Source: Anaerosomatales bacterium (GTDB lineage: Bacteria; Actinomycetota; Coriobacteriia; Anaerosomatales; Anaerosomataceae). Taken from it: a DNA stretch of 64,000 nucleotides. The notes beneath the pieces were generated by a model that saw only the letters and a program-made list of their open reading frames with translations, did no database searches and was not told the DNA's origin. Shown here in pieces: positions 11,259 to 24,521 of this stretch (positions are counted from its first letter, which is position 1; every line of letters starts with the position of its first letter). The stretch covers positions 186,001-250,000 of the forward strand of contig JASEEU010000003.1 of assembly GCA_030019445.1 (NCBI GenBank). Reading direction: 5' to 3'. Both the position numbers and the translations under genes were made by a program.

Positions 11259-11303
11259 TTGGCGGGACGGGTCGCAGGGTGATACCATCCGGGTGTTCAG
11301 GCA
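11259..11303 (+). promoter_or_regulatory. Candidate promoter and start-site motif of the ccm operon
   Basis: TTGGCG (11259-11264), 18-base spacer, then TACCAT (11283-11288) preceded by TG (extended -10). GTTCAGGCA starts 7 bases after the -10 end, at the expected transcription start. The spacer holds GTCGCAGGGTG (11271-11281). The same two blocks, with one base change in the second, occur in the hemA promoter, suggesting shared control. The remaining ~105 bases to ccmE are an untranslated leader with no gene; two CACGTG palindromes sit at 11378 and 11388 just before the ribosome binding site. Confidence 0.45.
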
Positions 11304-11410
11304 AAAGCAGGCGCACGACAACGACGGTGCCTTCCCCGGGCTCCCCGAATCGCGCGTTCACGCATCGGCACGACGGGCACGTGCGCCCACGTGATGAGGA
11401 GTGAGTTGTA

Positions 11411-12091
11411 TTGAACAAGCGGGCCAAGCAGCGCCTGATCGGCGTGACCGCGATCATCGTGATCATCGTCGCCGCCATTCTCGTCGGTACCGGCAGGGGA
11501 GCGGGTGCCGGTGCGCTCAAGTCCTCGGTCGCGGACGTGGCGGCGGACGACTCGCTCGTCGGCCAACAGGTACAGGTGAGTGGCCCGGTGGTTGCCGGCT
11601 CATGGGTGGCAGGGGCGAACCCGTTCGAGTTCGAGATCCACGATCAGGGGGAGACGAGCGGTCCCACGCTCAAGATCGTGTGGAGCAAGGCCGTGCCGAG
11701 CGCGTTCGGTGACGGTACCGTGGCCATCGTGACCGGAGTCGTCCAGGACGACGGCTCGATCGTCGCCGACAAGCTCATCACGCAGTGCCCATCCAAGTAC
11801 GAATCCGCGACCGGCGCGCTCTCGGTGGCCGACGCGCTCGCCAAGAAGGAAGAGATCCACGGCAACCCGGTGAAGGTGACGGGCTACATCGTCCCGGGGA
11901 CCATCGTGGCGGCCGGCGAGGGCGAGCGCTTCTCGGTGGCTGACGCCCCCGAGGGTGGCGAGACGCTCGGCATCGCGTTCACCGGGTCGCTGCCCGCAGG
12001 CATGGAGGACGGCTCGAAAGTCGTCATCCAGGGCCGCTTCACCGACGGCGCGTTCACCGCGGACGAGGTCTCTCTCGACGCGGACCAGTAA
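11411..12091 (+). CDS. ccmE: CcmE-like heme chaperone with duplicated OB domain
   Basis: A protein of 226 residues with an N-terminal membrane anchor (~8-27) and a periplasmic OB-fold. The heme-attachment site is of the CxxxY type (C126-PSK-Y130) instead of the proteobacterial HxxxY. Ordinary CcmE would end soon after. Here a second stretch (~153-226) repeats the pattern of the first: VKVTGYIVPG.. parallels VQVSGPVVAG.., and VVIQGRFTDGAFTADEV parallels VAIVTGVVQDDGSIVADKL. The second copy has no Cys or His at the heme position. TTG start follows GAGGAG. First gene of the ccm operon. Confidence 0.85.
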   Translation: MNKRAKQRLIGVTAIIVIIVAAILVGTGRGAGAGALKSSVADVAADDSLVGQQVQVSGPVVAGSWVAGANPFEFEIHDQGETSGPTLKIVWSKAVPSAFGDGTVAIVTGVVQDDGSIVADKLITQCPSKYESATGALSVADALAKKEEIHGNPVKVTGYIVPGTIVAAGEGERFSVADAPEGGETLGIAFTGSLPAGMEDGSKVVIQGRFTDGAFTADEVSLDADQ

Positions 12092-12143
12092 AGTACCGGT
12101 CCTGACCGGCGTGACCCGCACGGACTACGACAAGGAGTAGCGC

Positions 12144-14237
12144 ATGGCGCTGAGCGACCTCGGTAACGTACTGTTGGGATTCGCGGCGATCGCGGCGATC
12201 GCGTCGATCGGGAGCATCGCGGTCGGCCGGAAGGCCGAAGACGGTGGTGTCTTGAACCGCTTCGGTCACTACATGACCTATGCCGTCCTCGGGTTCGTTA
12301 CGCTGGCGACGCTCGCCCTGGCTACCGCGTTCCTCGGCGAGAACTTCACCCTCGAGTACGTCGCCTTCAATCACCCTAACGTCGTGGGCCCGTGGGCCTG
12401 GCTCTACCGACTCTCGGGCGTGTGGGCAGGACGTGAGGGTTCGCTCCTGTTCTGGGAGTGGGTGCTCGCCCTGTACGCGGGCTTCGTGGCGTACAAGTTC
12501 CGGAAGGGCGATGACACGCTCGGCAGCACGGGCCTGGCGCTTGTGAACTTCGTCCAGGTCTTCTTCCTCGTCGCCCTCTTCATCCCGCAGAACAACCCGT
12601 TCAAACCGATCGACCCTTCGTTCCTCGATCCCACGACCGGGGCGCTTCTGATCAATGCGGCGATGAACCCGCTGCTCCAGAACCCGTGGATGATCTCGCA
12701 TCCCCCGACGCTCTTTATCGGGTATGCGGGTCTGACCATTCCGTTCGCATTTGCACTGGCGGCGCTCATCACGGGTGACACATCGAAGCGGTGGGTCCAG
12801 GCGACCGACCGCATCACGGTCTTCTCATGGTTGCTGCTCGGCATCGGCATCGGGCTCGGATCGGTGTGGGCGTACGTGGAGCTCGCGTTCGGAGGCTACT
12901 GGGCATGGGACCCGGTCGAGAACGCATCGCTCTTGCCCTGGCTGACCGGCGTAGGACTTGTGCACTCGATGACCGTCTACCGTCGGCGTGAGGGGTTCCG
13001 TTCGTGGACCATCTTCCTCGCTGTGTTGACGTTCGTCCTGGTGCTGCTTGGAACGTTCATCACGCGGTCCGGCGTCGTGCAGTCCGTGCACGCGTTCCAG
13101 GAGGACATGCTGTCTTTCTGGCTCTTCATCACGATGATGGTCGGCTCTATGGCGGCCGGGCTCATCGGCATCTATCTGCGTCGCGGCCGGCTGGGCGGCA
13201 GCGAGACCTTCGATCGGCTCATGTCCAAGGAAGGCTCGTACTACGTCAACAACGTGATCATGACGATGGCGGCGCTCCTGGTCGCCTATCTGACCATGAC
13301 GTCCGCCTTCAAGGAGTGGCCGCTCGCTTGGCTTACCTCCTGGTGGCCCGGAGCCGGTCGCATCTTCGGTGCGGCCACGTATGACGCGCTCGCGAGACCC
13401 ATCGGTATCGCGTACATACTCGTGATGACGGTGTGTCCCATCCTGTCGTGGGGTGGCAGCGAGTTCGGGCAGTTCTGGAAGCGGGCCAAGTGGCCGGTCG
13501 CCGGAGCCGCAGTGTTTGGTGCCGGGTTGCTCGGGATCTGGTGGACGAGCATGCTGCCCTACTACCAGCAGACCGCCGAGAGCATGGCGCCGGTCGTCAA
13601 CCACACGCTCGCGGTCATCGGTCTCCTCACCGCCGCTCTCGCTGTGGCCCTGCCGGTGTATCTGTTCGTGGATGGCGCACGCAGGCGCGCCTCAGCGCGC
13701 GGGGAAAGCTTCGGCTCCGCGCTCGGCTGGATCTTCCTCAAGGCACGCACGCAGTCGGGTGGCTACCTCGTGCACCTCGGCATGGGGATCATCCTGATCG
13801 GCCTCATCGGATCGACGATGTACGTGAGCTCCTACGACGGTACGATCGCGATGGAGCAGGGCGCCACGTTCGCTGCCGGCCCCTACACGTACGAGTTTTC
13901 CGGGTACGAGGAGGTCACCGAGCCCAACGGCGACGAGGTGCTCACGCTGTCGCTCGACGTGCTCCGTGATGGCGCTGTGGTCGACACGCTGACGCCGCAG
14001 CTGCGCTTCCCGCTGCAGCTGCGAGAGCAGAATCAGACAACCCAGAAGGTCGCTATCGTCGAGCAGCCGCTGAAGGACATCTTCGTGTCCTTCTCGGGCA
14101 TCACGCAGGAAGGCACCGCATACATCACGATCAAGTACTTCCCGATGCAGTGGTGGGTGTGGTTCGGCTTCGTCGCGCTCATCGTCGGCAGCGGCCTCGC
14201 GTCCTGGCCGAAGAAGTCCCGACTGAAGGCGGCATAG
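12144..14237 (+). CDS. ccmF: CcmF, cytochrome c heme lyase subunit
   Basis: Membrane protein of 697 residues with more than a dozen hydrophobic segments. The heme-handling WWD motif GGYWAWDPVENASLLPWL is at ~249-266, and a periplasmic C-terminal domain precedes the last membrane helix. CcmF receives heme from holo-CcmE and ligates it to CXXCH motifs on the outer face of the cytoplasmic membrane. The ATG follows AAGGAG. The partner CcmH/CcmG thiol-handling proteins are not encoded nearby. Confidence 0.95.
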   Translation: MALSDLGNVLLGFAAIAAIASIGSIAVGRKAEDGGVLNRFGHYMTYAVLGFVTLATLALATAFLGENFTLEYVAFNHPNVVGPWAWLYRLSGVWAGREGSLLFWEWVLALYAGFVAYKFRKGDDTLGSTGLALVNFVQVFFLVALFIPQNNPFKPIDPSFLDPTTGALLINAAMNPLLQNPWMISHPPTLFIGYAGLTIPFAFALAALITGDTSKRWVQATDRITVFSWLLLGIGIGLGSVWAYVELAFGGYWAWDPVENASLLPWLTGVGLVHSMTVYRRREGFRSWTIFLAVLTFVLVLLGTFITRSGVVQSVHAFQEDMLSFWLFITMMVGSMAAGLIGIYLRRGRLGGSETFDRLMSKEGSYYVNNVIMTMAALLVAYLTMTSAFKEWPLAWLTSWWPGAGRIFGAATYDALARPIGIAYILVMTVCPILSWGGSEFGQFWKRAKWPVAGAAVFGAGLLGIWWTSMLPYYQQTAESMAPVVNHTLAVIGLLTAALAVALPVYLFVDGARRRASARGESFGSALGWIFLKARTQSGGYLVHLGMGIILIGLIGSTMYVSSYDGTIAMEQGATFAAGPYTYEFSGYEEVTEPNGDEVLTLSLDVLRDGAVVDTLTPQLRFPLQLREQNQTTQKVAIVEQPLKDIFVSFSGITQEGTAYITIKYFPMQWWVWFGFVALIVGSGLASWPKKSRLKAA

Positions 14238-14244
14238 GGAGCGC

Positions 14245-14973
14245 ATGGAGGGGGCAGGCCGCGATACGGCGCTCGAGGTCCGGGATCTCAGTCGGGCCTT
14301 CGGCGTGCGCAAGGCTCTCGACGGCGTGAGCCTCGAGGTGCCGAGCGGCGCCTTCCTCTCCATCTTCGGTCCCAACGGCGCGGGAAAGACGACGCTCGTC
14401 AAGGTGCTCACGACCCTGCTCAACCCCACGAGCGGCGCCGCGTCCGTCTGCGGTCTTGACGTGGTGGCCGAGGCGGTCGCGCTGCGGCATCGGATCGGGC
14501 TCATCAGCCACAATCCGCTGCTCTATCCTGATCTGACCGCCGAGGAGAACCTACTGTTCTTTGCGGACCTATACGGCGTGCAGGATGCCGAAGAGCGCGC
14601 CCGGGAATTGCTCGAGGCTGTGGAGCTCGACCATCGCCGCCTGGACCTCACCCGTACGTTCTCGCGCGGCATGCTCCAGCGGCTGTCGATCGCGCGCGCG
14701 CTGCTGCACCGGCCCGACGTGCTCTTCCTCGATGAGCCGTACTCGGGCCTCGATCCGCACGCCATGGATATCCTCGACCACCTCATCGCGCAGATCCGCG
14801 GTGAGCACACGTTCGTGATGATCAGTCACGACCTCGATAAGGGTCTGCAGCTGTGCTCGCACGCGCTGATCCTCGCCAGCGGTCGCGTCGTGCTCTACGA
14901 GGAGCGCGACGCGCTCGATGAGGCGGCGTTCAAGGAGACCTACCGCGCCACCGTCGGGATGGGGGTGGCGTGA
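14245..14973 (+). CDS. ccmA: CcmA, heme ABC transporter ATP-binding subunit
   Basis: Product of 242 residues with Walker A GPNGAGKTT (~42-50), signature-like FSRGMLQRLSIARALL, Walker B VLFLDEPYSGLD and an ISHD switch. CcmA powers release of holo-CcmE from the CcmABCD complex. It begins 7 bases after ccmF and its stop overlaps the ccmB start, so translation is coupled. Confidence 0.93.
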   Translation: MEGAGRDTALEVRDLSRAFGVRKALDGVSLEVPSGAFLSIFGPNGAGKTTLVKVLTTLLNPTSGAASVCGLDVVAEAVALRHRIGLISHNPLLYPDLTAEENLLFFADLYGVQDAEERARELLEAVELDHRRLDLTRTFSRGMLQRLSIARALLHRPDVLFLDEPYSGLDPHAMDILDHLIAQIRGEHTFVMISHDLDKGLQLCSHALILASGRVVLYEERDALDEAAFKETYRATVGMGVA

Positions 14974-15677
14974 TGGACGGCCTCGCATGGCGGCAGTTCA
15001 AGGCCATCCTGCGCAAAGACATCGTGATGGAACTCCGCACGCGCGAGATGGTGACCTCGATGGGGCTGTACGCGATCCTCACGATGGTCGTCTACCAGGT
15101 CGCCCTTTCGGAAGCGGGGGCCAGCCTCGACGTACGTCTCGTCATGCCGGGACTCATCTGGGTAGCGTTCATCTTCATGTCGCTGCTCGGCCTCAACCGG
15201 TCGTTCGTGCACGAGAAGGACCAGGGGTGCATCGAGGCCCTGCTGCTCGCGCCCATCGACCGGCCGGTGATCTTCTTCTCCAAGTTCACGGGCAACCTGC
15301 TGTTCCTGCTCGTGGTCGAAGTGCTGTCGCTCCCCGTGTTCTCGTTCCTGTTCCTGCAGGAGCAGCAAGGTATAGCGAACCCCGTGTGGATGGTGGGCCT
15401 CGTGCTCCTCGGCGCCTCGATAGGCATCTCGGGGGTCGGCACGCTGCTTGCGACCATCTCGGTGAACACGTCGGGCCGTGACATCATGCTCGCGGTGCTG
15501 TTCGTGCCGCTCATGTATCCGCTGCTCAGGGCTGCGGTCGGCGCGACGTTTGCGGCTGTCATCGGCGGCCCGGCGTCTGCAGCGCTGTTCTGGGGCTGGA
15601 TGGCCTGGGTGGCAGCCTTCGATGTCATAATGCTGCTCGTGGCGTTCGCGCTCTACGAGTTCGTCATCGGCGCCTAG
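14973..15677 (+). CDS. ccmB: CcmB, heme exporter permease subunit
   Basis: A product of 234 residues with six predicted membrane segments and the CcmB features FVHEKDQGCIEALLLAPIDR in the cytoplasmic loop. It pairs with CcmA. ATG at 14973 shares one base with the ccmA stop; a GTG three bases earlier is an equally possible start. Confidence 0.92.
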   Translation: MDGLAWRQFKAILRKDIVMELRTREMVTSMGLYAILTMVVYQVALSEAGASLDVRLVMPGLIWVAFIFMSLLGLNRSFVHEKDQGCIEALLLAPIDRPVIFFSKFTGNLLFLLVVEVLSLPVFSFLFLQEQQGIANPVWMVGLVLLGASIGISGVGTLLATISVNTSGRDIMLAVLFVPLMYPLLRAAVGATFAAVIGGPASAALFWGWMAWVAAFDVIMLLVAFALYEFVIGA

Positions 15678-15689
15678 AGGGCGCCCGGA

Positions 15690-16397
15690 ATGGAGGATCG
15701 TGCGGTGAAACGACGTCCGATAGCCGAGGTCATGCTCGCGCTCGGCGGCCTCATCACGACGGCCGCGTTCTTCATGGCGTTTCTCTGGGCGCCGGCGACC
15801 GTCTATCCGGACGGCCGCATCAACTTCTCGCAGAAGATCTTCTACTTCCACGTGCCGGTGGCCGAGGCCTCGTTCCTCGTCTTCTTCTTCACGGCGTTCT
15901 ACGGCGTGCGCTTCCTGATGACGAAGGACCGCCGTTATGACGTGATGGCGCGTGTCGCCACGGAAGTGACGCTGTTCTTCGTGCTGCTCACGATGGCTAC
16001 GGGCATACTGTGGACTCGCGTCGAGTGGGGCGTCTGGTGGCAGTGGGAGCCCCGGCTTACCACGTACTTCATCATGACGCTGCTAGTCATCGGCTACTTC
16101 GTCTTGCGCAACTCGGTGGAGGACGACGAGAAGCGGGCAACGTATGCCGCGGCGTTCGGCATCCTGGCCTTCATCGACGCGCCCATCAGCTTCTTCATCA
16201 CGCGGTGGGTCGAGTCGATCCATCCCGTCGTACTGGCGGGGGGCGAGAGTTCGGGGCTTGAGCCGCCGATGCTCATCACGTTCATCATCGCCCAGGTCGG
16301 CATGCTCATGCTCGGCTATGCGTTCTATCAGATGCGCTTGCGTGAGGAAGAGCTGCACGAGCGGCTCGAAGCGCTCAAGATCTCGATCGGAGGTTAG
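15690..16397 (+). CDS. ccmC: CcmC, heme delivery protein
   Basis: A protein of 235 residues with six membrane helices, a FHVPVAEASFLVFF segment with one conserved His, and the WWD-type loop WGVWWQWEPRLTTYFI at ~113-128. The usual motif ends WxWD; here it reads WQWE, a conservative change. A second conserved His lies in ESIHPVVL. CcmC loads heme onto CcmE. It sits between ccmB and a ccmD-like gene, as in canonical operons. Confidence 0.93.
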   Translation: MEDRAVKRRPIAEVMLALGGLITTAAFFMAFLWAPATVYPDGRINFSQKIFYFHVPVAEASFLVFFFTAFYGVRFLMTKDRRYDVMARVATEVTLFFVLLTMATGILWTRVEWGVWWQWEPRLTTYFIMTLLVIGYFVLRNSVEDDEKRATYAAAFGILAFIDAPISFFITRWVESIHPVVLAGGESSGLEPPMLITFIIAQVGMLMLGYAFYQMRLREEELHERLEALKISIGG

Positions 16398-16399
16398 CT

Positions 16400-16579
16400 G
16401 TGGGAGACATCTATCGCGAAGTCCTGCCGCAGGCGCCCTACGTCATCGGCGCCTACGGGCTCATCTGGGCCTTCATGATCGGCTTCGTGGCCACCGTGTT
16501 CAGCCGGCTCCGCCGGCTCGAGAAGGAGATCGCGGTCGTCGAGGCGGCCGTGAAGCGTCGGGAGAAGGCCGAGGCCTAG
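16400..16579 (+). CDS. ccmD: CcmD-like small membrane protein
   Basis: A gene of only 59 codons starting at GTG 16400, 2 bases after the ccmC stop, with GGAGG 6 bases upstream. The product begins MGDIYREVLPQAPYVIGAYG and has one membrane helix (about residues 14-36: YVIGAYGLIWAFMIGFVATVF). It ends in a charged helix SRLRRLEKEIAVVEAAVKRR. Size, topology (one TM, then Arg/Glu-rich cytoplasmic tail) and position right after ccmC all match CcmD, which stabilises CcmABC-E. Sequence conservation in CcmD is low, so the call rests mainly on context. Confidence 0.8.
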   Translation: MGDIYREVLPQAPYVIGAYGLIWAFMIGFVATVFSRLRRLEKEIAVVEAAVKRREKAEA

Positions 16580-16618
16580 CGGCCTGTCCGGCACGGCCCG
16601 AGACGGCAAGGAGGCCCT

Positions 16619-17455: not shown

Positions 17456-18115
17456 GTGAGCGTCCGTGACTACACGAAGCCCTACTATCCCGTCTTCCTC
17501 GACCTGACCGGTCGGCTTGCCGTCATCGTCGGCGGCGGTGCTGTCGCCGAGCGCAAGGTCCGGACGCTTGTCGAGTACGGAGCACGCGTGCGCATCATAG
17601 CTCCGCAGGTCACGCCCTGGATCGCCGGGCAGGCCGGGGCAGGGACGATCGAGCACGAGCCGCGCGGCTACGTCCGCGGCGACCTTGAGGACGCGTTCCT
17701 CGTCATCTGCGCGACCGATTCTGCCGAGGTCAACGTCGCGGTCTCCGACGAGGCTGAGGCGCGCGGATGTCTCGTCAACGTGGTGGACGTGCCGGAGCTC
17801 TGCAGCTTCATCGTCCCGTCCATCGTCCGTCGCGGACAGCTCCAGCTCGCGATCTCCACGGGTGGCGCGGCCCCCGCGGTCGCCAAGCGCCTGCGCAAGC
17901 ACATCGACGGTCATGTGGGTCCCGAGTGGGAGACGTACGTGGCTCTGCTCGGCGAGCTTCGCGCCCTCGTGATGGAGCGCGTTCCCGGCTCCGAGGCCGA
18001 CCGCAAGCCGATCTTCGAGGCGGTGGCCGACTCGGACCTGCTCGAACGCATCGCAGCCGGCGAACGACCGACTGCCGAGGACCTCTTCGCTCGGTTCGCA
18101 GGCGATGCGCGATGA
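17456..18115 (+). CDS. Precorrin-2 dehydrogenase / sirohydrochlorin ferrochelatase family (SirC/CysG-N)
   Basis: A protein of 219 residues with an N-terminal Rossmann fold: VIVGGGAVAERKVRTLVEYGA (~23-43), ICATD, and VNVVDVPELCSFIVPSIVRRGQLQLAISTGGAAP, all typical of the CysG N-terminal module. It oxidises precorrin-2 to sirohydrochlorin with NAD+ and in some members also inserts Fe2+ to give siroheme. Siroheme is the entry substrate of the Ahb pathway encoded downstream. Start GTG is 3 bases from the upstream stop; the gene's own stop overlaps the SDR start. Confidence 0.9.
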   Translation: MSVRDYTKPYYPVFLDLTGRLAVIVGGGAVAERKVRTLVEYGARVRIIAPQVTPWIAGQAGAGTIEHEPRGYVRGDLEDAFLVICATDSAEVNVAVSDEAEARGCLVNVVDVPELCSFIVPSIVRRGQLQLAISTGGAAPAVAKRLRKHIDGHVGPEWETYVALLGELRALVMERVPGSEADRKPIFEAVADSDLLERIAAGERPTAEDLFARFAGDAR

Positions 18116-18951
18116 GGTTCGAAGGCGCGGTCACCGCCATAACGGGAGCCTCCTCAGGCGTTGGTCTCGCGGCCGCGGAGCTTGCGGCGACACGCGGTGC
18201 GCACGTCGCGCTCATCGCGCGTGACCGCGGCCGCCTTGAGGCGGCCGAGGAGGCCGTTCGCTCGGCGCGGCCGGACGCCGACCAGCGTGTGGCGGCGTAC
18301 TCGTGCGACGTCTCCGATCCCGGGCAGGTCGCCGAGACGTTCTCGGCCATCGAAGCCGACCTCGGTCCGGTGGACATCCTGCTCAACTGCGCCGGGTACT
18401 GCATGCCGGGCCGGTTCATCGAACAGAGCGCCGAGGAGCTCGTCGGACAGATCGAGACCAACCTCTGCGGCACGCTCTACCCCACGCGCGCGGTCGTCCC
18501 CGGGATGGTCGAGCGCGGGAAGGGACACGTCGCCAACGTCTCATCGATGGGCGGGTTCGTCGGCGTCTACGGGTACTCGGGGTACAGCCCCGCGAAGTTC
18601 GGTGTGATGGGCCTCTCGGAAGTGCTGCGTTGCGAACTGAAGCCGCACGGGATCGGCGTGACGGTGCTCTGTCCGCCCAACATCGATACGCCGGGTTACG
18701 CTCGCGAGCTCGAGCTCGAGCCGCCCGAGACGGCCGCCATCAACGGCTCGGTCAAGACGGCGTCGCCGCGTTTCATGGCGCGCGTGCTGCTCGACGCGGT
18801 GGAGCGCGGGCGGTATCTGGTGGTGCCGGGATTCGTGAACGGTGCGCTCTATCGCCTCAAGGGCGTGCTACCCGAGCTCTTCTTCGCGGTGTTCGACCGC
18901 GACGTCGCCGCAGTGCGGAAGCGGGGTGACGCGCATGGCCGGGCTTCGTGA
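18112..18951 (+). CDS. Short-chain dehydrogenase/reductase, 3-ketodihydrosphingosine-reductase-like
   Basis: A protein of 279 residues, classical SDR: cofactor motif TGASSGVG (10-17), NCAG, VSSMGGF and the catalytic Y158-SPA-K162. The segment VTVLCPPNIDTPGYARE after the active site resembles the equivalent CPPDTDTPG motif of 3-ketodihydrosphingosine reductases. The substrate is not established. It overlaps the precorrin-2 dehydrogenase stop by ATGA, so it is in a heme operon with no obvious chemical role there. A membrane lipid or an unrelated ketone are possible substrates. Confidence 0.8.
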   Translation: MRFEGAVTAITGASSGVGLAAAELAATRGAHVALIARDRGRLEAAEEAVRSARPDADQRVAAYSCDVSDPGQVAETFSAIEADLGPVDILLNCAGYCMPGRFIEQSAEELVGQIETNLCGTLYPTRAVVPGMVERGKGHVANVSSMGGFVGVYGYSGYSPAKFGVMGLSEVLRCELKPHGIGVTVLCPPNIDTPGYARELELEPPETAAINGSVKTASPRFMARVLLDAVERGRYLVVPGFVNGALYRLKGVLPELFFAVFDRDVAAVRKRGDAHGRAS

Positions 18952-18966
18952 GCAGGCTCACATGCG

Positions 18967-19011
18967 TTGTCCCGTCGCAGCGTGCGGTGGTAGGATAGCT
19001 TCGTTCAGGCA
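18967..19011 (+). promoter_or_regulatory. Candidate hemA promoter with the ccm-shared start-site motif
   Basis: TTGTCC (18967-18972), 18-base spacer, TAGGAT (18991-18996), then GTTCAGGCA beginning at 19003, the predicted transcription start. The spacer contains GTCGCAGCGTG (18974-18984). Both blocks recur in the ccmE promoter, with GTTCAGGCA at exactly the same distance from the -10. This looks like a common operator or initially transcribed element. Confidence 0.45.
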
Positions 19012-19098
19012 GGCGCAGGAGGTGCGCTCCATACTGTTGCACATCGCCCCCGCCGGGCCTGCTTGCCTGAACAACAACGCACCGTCTCGGCGGGGGCG
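19003..19098 (+). promoter_or_regulatory. Structured 5' leader of hemA with interleaved stems
   Basis: Stem A: 19003-19014 pairs with 19061-19072 (12 bp, one G-U). Stem B: 19045-19055 pairs perfectly with 19088-19098 (11 bp, nearly all G-C). The order A-B-A'-B' is that of a pseudoknot. The loop between A and B can form a small hairpin exposing GGAGG (19018-19022). Bases after B' are CTCCTTTGCC, only mildly T-rich. No known riboswitch motif (cobalamin, T-box, SAM) is visible. It may sense a heme-pathway product or simply fold as an attenuator. Confidence 0.45.
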
Positions 19099-19149
19099 CT
19101 CCTTTGCCTTCAACGCCCTGCAAGCGAGTACAGGATCCGGGTTGTCCTC

Positions 19150-20520
19150 ATGCATTTGATCCTCGTCGGTCTCAGCCATAAGACCGCGCCCGTCGAGATA
19201 CGCGAGCGGCTGACGTTCCCTGCCCATCGGCAGGCCGAGGCCCTCACGCTGTTGACGCGCTATGACATGGTGGCCGAGGCGGTCATCGTGTCGACGTGCA
19301 ACCGGACCGAGGTCTATGCGGTCGTCACCGGCGAGGACGCCGGGGTCGAAGCCGTGCTGGACTTCATGACGACGTACCACGATCTCGATAAGCACGACCT
19401 GGTCCGCTATCTGTACATCATCCGGGGCGAGGCGGTGATCCGGCACCTGTTCCGCGTGGTCGCTTCGCTCGACTCGATGGTGCTCGGTGAGGCGCAGATC
19501 CTCGGCCAGGTCAAGGAGGCGTACGACCACGCGTTCGACAACGGCGCATCCGGTCGGGCCTTCAACAAGCTGTTCCGGCAGTCCTTCGAGGTGGGCAAGC
19601 GTGTCCGCACCGAGACCGAGATCGGCGAGAACGCGGTGTCCATCTCGTACGCGGCCGTGGAGCTCGCCAAGAAGGTGTTCGACACGCTCGACGGCCGCAC
19701 GGTGCTGATCCTCGGCGCCGGCAAGATGAGCGAGCTCACCGCCAAGCACCTGGTGAGCAACGGCGTGAAGGCGGTGCTCGTCGCCAATCGGACGTACGAG
19801 CGTGCCGAGGAGCTCGCCTGCCGCTTCTGCGGCGAGGCCATCCGCTACGATGCCCTGTTCGAGCGTATGAGCGAGGCCGACATCGTGATCTCGTCCACGG
19901 CCGCCACGCACTACGTCATCACGCGTGAGCAGGTGGCGGCTACGATGAAGGGCCGCGGTGGCCGCCCGTTGTTCATGATCGATATCGCCGTGCCGCGTGA
20001 CATCGAGCCGGCGGTCAACGAGCTCTCCAGCGTGTTCCTCTACGACATCGATGACCTGAACGGCGTCGTGGAATCCAACCTGGAGGAGCGCATGCGCGAG
20101 GCGCGGCGCGCCGAGGCGATCATCGACGAGGAGATCGAGTCGTTCATCGGCTGGCTCGAATCGATGCAGGTGGTGCCGACGGTCGCGGCGATCCGCGCCA
20201 AGGCCGAGGCGATCCGCCAGGCCGAGATCGAGAAGGCGCTCAAGCGCCTCGGCGGCCTGTCGGAAAAGGAGCTCAAGACGGTGGACGCGCTCACCTGCGC
20301 CATCGTGAACAAGATGCTGCACGGCCCGACGGCCCGGCTCAAGCAGGCCGCCGGCAGCAAGGAGGGACTCGTGGTCGTCGAGACCGCTCGCGCACTCTAC
20401 GGCCTCGAGGACTCCGAAGAGCGGAGTGGCTACGGCTCGCTCCGCAACCTGCTGAACATGCGTGCGCGGGAGATCGCAGGAGACCGGAAGAAGGAGATGG
20501 GTGACTCTGTTGGGTGCTGA
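19150..20520 (+). CDS. hemA: HemA, glutamyl-tRNA reductase
   Basis: A product of 456 residues beginning MHLILVGLSHKTAPVEIRERL. The active-site Cys is C50 in VSTCNRTEVY; GEAQILGQVKEAY and the Rossmann motif VLILGAGKMSELTAKHL follow, then the C-terminal dimerisation helices. HemA reduces Glu-tRNA to glutamate-1-semialdehyde, the committed step of C5 tetrapyrrole synthesis. ATG 19150 was taken because homology begins there; the ribosome binding site is weak (AGGAT/CCGGG), which fits leader-controlled translation. An upstream open frame ends at 19159 and overlaps the start. Confidence 0.95.
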   Translation: MHLILVGLSHKTAPVEIRERLTFPAHRQAEALTLLTRYDMVAEAVIVSTCNRTEVYAVVTGEDAGVEAVLDFMTTYHDLDKHDLVRYLYIIRGEAVIRHLFRVVASLDSMVLGEAQILGQVKEAYDHAFDNGASGRAFNKLFRQSFEVGKRVRTETEIGENAVSISYAAVELAKKVFDTLDGRTVLILGAGKMSELTAKHLVSNGVKAVLVANRTYERAEELACRFCGEAIRYDALFERMSEADIVISSTAATHYVITREQVAATMKGRGGRPLFMIDIAVPRDIEPAVNELSSVFLYDIDDLNGVVESNLEERMREARRAEAIIDEEIESFIGWLESMQVVPTVAAIRAKAEAIRQAEIEKALKRLGGLSEKELKTVDALTCAIVNKMLHGPTARLKQAAGSKEGLVVVETARALYGLEDSEERSGYGSLRNLLNMRAREIAGDRKKEMGDSVGC

Positions 20521-24445: not shown

Positions 24446-24521
24446 GGGGATGTAGCTCAGCTGGGAGAGCGCTGCCTTCGCAAGGCAGAGGCCGGCGGTT
24501 CGAATCCGCTCATCTCCACCA
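24446..24521 (+). tRNA. tRNA-Ala (anticodon CGC)
   Basis: A cloverleaf of 76 bases including an encoded CCA. Acceptor GGGGATG pairs with CATCTCC and contains the G3-U70 wobble that identifies alanine tRNA. The D-arm is GCTCAGCTGGGAGAGC. The anticodon stem CTGCC/GGCAG encloses TTCGCAA, giving anticodon CGC at 24479-24481. The T-arm GGCGGTTCGAATCCGCT is a near-consensus T-loop. It lies between ahbC and a small membrane protein gene inside the heme cluster. Confidence 0.97.

Follow-up and report, generated by a model that had tools for sequence, protein, structure and literature searches.

The leader of hemA, the gene for the committed step of heme synthesis, is likely to be a regulatory RNA that base-pairs both in cis and in trans and so coordinates heme synthesis with cytochrome c maturation. 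A GC-rich hairpin (stem c/c′) would expose two recognition strands, a′ and b′, in a loop of approximately 30 nt. Target mRNAs would begin with a two-part tag, a followed by b, to which these strands would pair. This tag is found at the predicted start of the ccm operon mRNA, where pairing would occur in trans, and at that of the hemA RNA itself, where pairing in cis would give the order abca′b′c′. The comparative sequence evidence consists of conservation, promoter-proximal tags, compensatory changes in c, in a and b in cis and in a and b in trans, and co-occurrence of the hairpin with the tag.

In the window (the whole stretch of 64 000 nt that was analysed), the hemA leader and its surroundings comprise the following features.

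18967–18972, + strand: −35 box of the hemA promoter (TTGTCC), with an 18-nt spacer to the −10
18991–18996, + strand: −10 box of the hemA promoter (TAGGAT), conserved as TGNTANNAT 6–8 nt before strand a in approximately 60 relatives
19003–19014, + strand: strand a (GUUCAGGCAGGC), cis partner of a′ and probable RNA 5′ end
19021–19026, + strand: strand b (GGUGCG), cis partner of b′ (19078–19083)
19045–19056, + strand: c, the 5′ strand of hairpin stem H3, paired in 100% of 61 leaders
19059–19072, + strand: a′ (CUGCUUGCCUGAAC) in the hairpin loop, with a as partner in cis and the ccm 5′ end in trans
19078–19086, + strand: b′ (CGCACCGUC) in the hairpin loop, complementary to b in cis (6 bp) and to ccm b in trans (8 bp, GACGGUGC/GCACCGUC)
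19087–19098, + strand: c′, the 3′ strand of H3, followed by an imperfect U-tract here and by a U-run (terminator-like) in low-GC relatives
19150–20520, + strand: hemA, glutamyl-tRNA reductase (Pfam GlutR_N, Shikimate_DH, GlutR_dimer)

The sequence-only reading had described two interleaved stems, of 12 and 11 nt, in a leader of about 147 nt with a weak ribosome site. A repeat search recovered both: GTTCAGGCAGGC (19003–19014) with GCTTGCCTGAAC (19061–19072; one G-U, 92% strict complement) and CGCCCCCGCCG (19045–19055) with CGGCGGGGGCG (19088–19098; 100% complementary). Their coordinates interleave as A-B-A′-B′, the hemA ATG at 19150 lies 147 nt past the start of the first stem, and no strong Shine–Dalgarno (SD) sequence precedes it. 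A third interleaved pairing, between 19021–19026 (b) and 19078–19083 (b′), completes the order. The same reading had placed a GGAGG-bearing hairpin in the first loop; GGAGG precedes c in only five of 63 leaders, so the hairpin is not a conserved part of the element and was dropped as a candidate ribosome site. Immediately after c′, at 19099–19110, there is a conserved motif, (A/T)(C/A)CC(T/A)TTG(C/T)CC, with C at positions 3 and 4 in approximately 90% of leaders, which is neither an SD nor a clean U-run.

A consensus promoter scan of the window did not list the hemA promoter (18967–18996); support for it comes from its being kept at the same place in approximately 60 leaders. The position of its −35 and −10 boxes predicts a transcription start at or next to 19003, and the RNA therefore probably begins with strand a. 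The nested fold of the window leader alone is unremarkable (z = −1.4; 24 of 200 shuffles equally good), as expected if the pairs cross. A single-sequence fold is no proof of structure; comparison across relatives provides it.

We sampled 69 genomes of the window's order, hemA being detectable in 66 of them, and a leader model (R1) found the element in 65 of the 66. The single exception was G040, whose hemA leader (L094) lacks the element. The usual layout is a −10 box, 6–8 nt, GUUCAGGC (or a near variant) as strand a, and then the b strand, while the hairpin follows the consensus CGCCC(C/U)CGCCGG–GNCCUGCUUGCCUGAACAACA(A)CGCACCGC–CCGGCG(G/A)GGGCG, with a′ as the near-invariant core of the family. 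When 61 order-level leaders were aligned (alignment A1), stem c/c′ was paired in 100% of cells and included three compensatory pairs, one of them split between C-G (32 leaders) and U-A (29 leaders). Helix b/b′ in cis was paired in 92% of cells, with three pairs changed on both sides, and helix a/a′ in cis was paired in 99.8% of cells, yet is nearly invariant. Slid controls gave pairing of only 35–45%; the structure beat all of these, and on four of the five measures used it also beat every one of 500 shuffles. Covariance analysis of hemA leaders, which the sequence-only reading had proposed as a check, thus revealed compensatory changes in the c stem and, among divergent relatives, in a/a′. 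Chance stems are ruled out by this conservation across relatives. A coding region or leader peptide was rejected, since the best-conserved block contains indels of a single nucleotide (AACAACAACG/AACAACACG). The element therefore has conserved stems with compensatory changes in promoter-proximal, non-coding sequence, as a structured cis-regulatory RNA does.

The same a and b sequences recur 7.7 kb upstream, at the start of the ccm operon and at an equal distance from the −10 box.

11259–11288, + strand: ccm operon promoter (−35 TTGGCG, 18-nt spacer, −10 TACCAT)
11295–11310, + strand: ccm strand a (GUUCAGGCAAAAGCAG), probable mRNA 5′ end; duplex with a′ −21.6 kcal/mol
11323–11330, + strand: ccm strand b (GACGGUGC); duplex with b′ −16.4 kcal/mol, versus −12.3 for cis b
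11411–16585, + strand: ccmE, ccmF, ccmA, ccmB, ccmC and a ccmD-like small ORF (Pfam CcmE, CcmF_C, ABC_tran, CcmB, Cytochrom_C_asm; ORFs)

The operon runs on through ccsA/hemX-like, sirC-like and SDR genes to 18951. In 71 relatives, a promoter-anchored tag pattern gave mostly two sites per genome, at hemA and at a place 7–10 kb upstream. The window's genome yielded these two matches only (hemA and ccm), and the reversed control none. A further site there, C22:26188 (L187; a protein without a Pfam match), has no −10 at the usual distance and was not counted. Strand a was present in the ccm leaders of 40 genomes of the window's order and b in most; the order is a, a short spacer, mostly a b strand like GCGGUGCG, and then the SD. 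Tag sequences were also seen ahead of other genes. Three loci of genus g8 (L208, L210 and L211; same in G007 and G023) have GTTCAGGCA after a −10 box (TATACTTTGTCGG), with no b strand seen. The gene behind this tag reads by eye as an adenosylhomocysteinase, a possible extra regulon member. At L221 (G055:C90) and at sites in G042, G056 and G027, a conserved −10 and GTTCAGGCA (TATACTACGCGRG) precede an ORF starting VSDQDFFFDDDEKPAAKS.

The heme cluster of the window contains a sirC-like gene (17456), an SDR gene (18112), hemA, hemC, a cobA-hemD fusion, ahbC (705.7 bits with TIGR04546, whose cut-off is 650) and hemB. This content (sirC-like, cobA-hemD, ahbC) suggests that heme is probably made through siroheme. 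The SDR gene (18112–18951), of unassigned role, sits between sirC and hemA; since a similar gene precedes hemA in family f20 (L170–L173), the sirC-SDR-hemA arrangement looks old. Judged from the genes, heme-related control is plausible.

Complementarity between the hemA-leader loop and the ccm 5′ end extends up to 14 bp for a and 6–12 bp for b in most genomes. Of 40 ccm leaders, 25 allow 14 bp between a and a′ in trans, against 8–13 bp for cis a of hemA in 39 of 40. Counted contiguously from the first G, ccm pairs with a′ over at least 9 positions (9 to 14) in 52 of 52 genomes, and over 14 in 31, where the first nine bases match by construction at the 39 non-window ccm sites, these having been found by a search with GTTCAGGCA. 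That selection does not affect the b strand, the pairs that extend a to 14 bp, or a sample anchored on CcmE (below). The mean trans score for b:b′ was 19.65, versus 12.94 (s.d. 0.44) for shuffled leaders and 18.40 when cores were taken from other families (19.65 was reached in 4 of 20 000 draws). This signal is confined to the first 46 nt of the ccm leader, windows further down scoring 12–14. Pairing of cis b with its own b′ is less specific (562 of 20 000 draws as good). The contiguous-pair test took the place of a duplex-energy test on all 20 nt following a′, in which GC pairing to c′ had been a confounder.

Changes on the two sides of the trans pairing are matched. The window's own genome has GACGGUGC/GCACCGUC, and further matched b changes were found in G016 (ACGGUGCG/CGCACCGU), G029 (GCAGUGCGU/ACGCACUGC), G045 (GAUUGGUGCGU/ACGCACCAAUC, 11 bp) and G048 (GGAGCGGUGCGU/AUGCACUGCUCC, 12 bp with G-U). 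Both a (GUCCAGG/CCUGGAC) and b (GCAGUGC/GCACUGC) have changed in match in G385, while G072 and G091 have a matched a change, GUUCAGGUA/UACCUGAAC. Some ccm leaders match b poorly (G004, G005, G006, G041 and G051). As a′ is nearly invariant, just two lineages provide covariation of a in trans. Related genomes do not count as independent observations.

The CcmE-anchored sample comprised 30 genomes, mainly from neighbouring families, in which the CcmE protein served to locate the ccmE leader. Among the judgeable genomes, tag a was present at ccm in 11 of the 12 that have the core and in none of the 10 that lack it (hypergeometric 12/705432, approx. 2 × 10⁻⁵, relatedness ignored). This count leaves out contig ends, genomes without CcmE, G079 and G083 (hemA start missing, both tagged), and families f39 and f91, where the element itself heads ccm genes. 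Core-negative cases come from three or more parts of the tree (G040; genus g45 of f20; f19/f22), and G040 has neither core nor ccm tag although hemA is present. Conversely, hemA was not detected in the f21 genomes, which retain both core and ccm tag, and G006 has lost the cis strand a of hemA and kept the ccm tag. Taken together, G006 and f21 suggest that selection acts at least as much on trans as on cis pairing. The complementarity in trans thus both covaries and co-occurs with its partner, as expected of a leader-derived trans-acting small RNA.

A wider search with R1 over 396 genomes of the phylum, the relatives compared being mostly metagenome assemblies, yielded 13 further convincing members in six families of the phylum; nine more members were found in other families of the window's class. 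Distant relatives have c stems of wholly different sequence that are still complementary (CAUCCCUGUUAGGC/GCCUAACAGGGAUG; UUACCUCUAGUGGA/UCCGCUAGGGGUAA), and a/a′ has changed in a compensatory manner in f39 (GUUUAGGC/GCCUAAAC and GUUUAGAC/GUCUAAAC) and f89 (GUCCAGGC/GCCUGGAC). The element of f39 and f91 lies ahead of cytochrome c assembly genes, not hemA, with CcmE approximately 1 kb away. Low-GC relatives L151, L157 and L160 have a U-run right after c/c′; GC-rich members have c′ without a clean U-run, with T at positions 5–7 after c′ in about half of leaders. Weak R1 matches in G148, G194 and G276 and second matches in G042 and G063 were rejected as chance, the weak-match loci examined (L163–L165, L169) lack the core loop, and 13 matches from a scan of viral contigs with the core 17-mer were likewise taken as chance.

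Members occur in two forms, form 1 with a and b in cis and form 2 as the hairpin alone (f20, f21, f67 and f86). Form 2 has no cis partner obeying the tag rule within approximately 400 nt, though the loop sequence is kept throughout, and this suggested that the partner acts in trans. The form 2 hairpin of f67 and f86 is an apparent stand-alone gene of approximately 90 nt with its own −35 and −10 boxes and a U-run terminator, located in f67 between moaC and mog. Genomes of these two families have GTTCAGGCAAGCAG and near matches right after promoter-like sequences, with tags on the leaders of hemA and thioredoxin-family (ResA/CcmG-like) genes; the tagged leaders (hemA, thioredoxin-family and a membrane protein without a Pfam match) have terminator-like hairpins downstream of a. 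The membrane protein family (MATTDKGTSKDINKLQDKKDK...), preceded by tags and terminator-like hairpins at L180, L186 and L276, presumably resembles DUF2318-type proteins. The f20 core lies between an SDR gene and hemA with no evident promoter, in L171 a few nucleotides before the hemA start; L171 alone has an SD-like GAGGGGGA within c′ just before that start. The f21 core directly follows ccmC-ccmD (L166, L167 and L168), with a strong terminator-like hairpin next in L166 and L167, and is possibly a 3′-UTR version of the RNA.

These distributions bear on other explanations. A metabolite riboswitch for heme, siroheme or a corrinoid that acts purely in cis, with the abca′b′c′ pseudoknot as aptamer and the c hairpin as expression platform, would suit the structured, promoter-proximal leader of a committed-step gene with a highly conserved loop, and the c hairpin resembles a terminator, a U-run following it in low-GC relatives. 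We nevertheless consider it improbable, as it leaves the a/b tags at the ccm 5′ end and the matched changes in trans unexplained. The ccm 5′ sequences match the loop better than hemA's own 5′ strand in most genomes, and in other families hairpins persist without a cis partner (f20, f21, f67, f86) or without hemA (f21). The sequence-only reading had suggested that the hemA leader may be a new tetrapyrrole- or heme-responsive RNA. A conserved, structured RNA with covarying stems, a conserved promoter and no Rfam match is indeed present, but the purely cis-acting picture misses the ccm tags.

It is also improbable that a and b are the DNA operator of a transcription factor for hemA and ccm, with the inverted loop copy as a second operator, even though the tags have a fixed place 6–8 bp past the −10 and heme and cytochrome c genes would also make up the regulon expected of such a factor. 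An inverted a-b operator would read b′ then a′, whereas the loop reads a′ then b′; the a-b spacing varies, most leaders having their best b match start between +17 and +28; the stem that encloses the loop shows RNA covariation; and in f67/f86 the loop belongs to a stand-alone, terminator-ended gene. We give as little credence to an element working within one transcript, in which ccm read-through would control hemA by pairing of its own 5′ end with the core over 7–8 kb, or in which the core would be a processed or terminator element at the ccm-hem boundary. The f20 core, with no evident promoter between the SDR gene and hemA and a few nucleotides before hemA in L171, and the f21 core, just after ccmD and in L166 and L167 before a terminator-like hairpin, would fit such an arrangement. 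The separate promoter of nearly all order-level leaders and the separate gene in f67/f86, however, make the ccm transcript dispensable.

If the leader is a cis/trans base-pairing RNA, transcripts that end at the hairpin, or are processed close to it, would act as a small RNA on the ccm mRNA, capturing its 5′ end and altering its stability or onward expression. Pairing in cis at hemA would autoregulate the gene or store the loop, and the outcome would be a heme supply coordinated with cytochrome c maturation. We infer a discrete short RNA only from the promoter and terminator in f67/f86. In the low-GC families, whose tagged leaders have U-run terminators, transcription attenuation is the likely regulatory step, and the terminator-like hairpins of f67/f86 favour it. 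In the window's order the ccm tag lies tens of bases from the SD, which makes direct ribosome blocking unlikely; 5′-end capture (stability) or attenuation is more likely. Since the target reads a-b and the loop a′-b′, the two helices cross, and the link of approximately 5 nt between a′ and b′ would leave little room for both to form in full simultaneously; they may instead form one after the other. Whether the RNA restrains hemA and ccm is a guess, and we lean slightly towards negative regulation. A rather unlikely elaboration is a split sensor, in which the hemA-leader loop would form one and the same crossing a/b complex with either of two partners, the 5′ end of its own RNA in cis or that of the ccm mRNA in trans. 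The choice would be set by a tetrapyrrole or redox signal, and a single RNA would thereby sense heme status and balance heme synthesis against cytochrome c assembly. The cis form, with three mutually crossing helices, would be a rarely seen RNA topology.

The Rfam 15 scan of the window gave only a tRNA (24446–24518) at the gathering cut-off. Scanning the leader at E up to 10 gave chance matches only, far below cut-off, and divergent relatives gave no match within the element; the absence of a known riboswitch signature noted from the sequence is thus matched by the absence of any Rfam hit. A T-box, which has a specifier loop and a AGGGUGGNACCGCG antiterminator, was rejected: the Rfam scans of the window gave no T-box match, and by eye the leader lacks the motif. 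Cobalamin-class riboswitches share the position ahead of tetrapyrrole genes but, unlike them, this element has no Rfam match at any useful score. The literature search, which did not extend to subscription papers, found no paper naming a hemA or ccm leader RNA, and the RNA is apparently undescribed. The HRC-8-4 motif (PMC8632094) is likewise a candidate structured RNA in the neighbourhood of cytochrome genes, in its case cco cytochrome oxidase operons; it is reported from Rhodobacterales only, and its genes are different.

Leader-derived small RNAs include the SAM-II metZ RNA RZ of Sinorhizobium (PMC9373788) and Rli51 of Listeria, reported to act in cis and in trans (PMC11394854). Like these, the hemA leader is a 5′ leader predicted to be able to end early and yield a short RNA. 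Unlike them, it shares a two-part tag with a second operon of the same pathway, its loop is predicted to pair with both leaders, and hairpin and tag co-occur across lineages. SreA/SreB and rnTrpL are further RNAs of this leader-derived kind. FasX is a small RNA that binds the extreme 5′ end of its target, the ska mRNA. The site here is similarly the first bases of the mRNA, mostly far from the ribosome site, but comprises two separate target strands in crossing order, with a copy of the tag in the RNA's own gene. The hemA/ccm RNA would thus appear to be a family separate from the known leader-derived trans-acting RNAs, marked by the shared 5′ tag.

If this is correct, an RNA family outside Rfam extends across several families of the phylum, and the committed step of heme synthesis is tied to a heme-consuming assembly line by a short 5′ tag common to the target mRNAs. 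The matching of heme supply to cytochrome c maturation would then become directly testable. With the tag, genome sequence by itself suffices to recognise both the regulon and the RNA that partners it. The natural gradation from leaders with a cis partner to what looks like a stand-alone small RNA bears on the origin of trans-acting RNAs.
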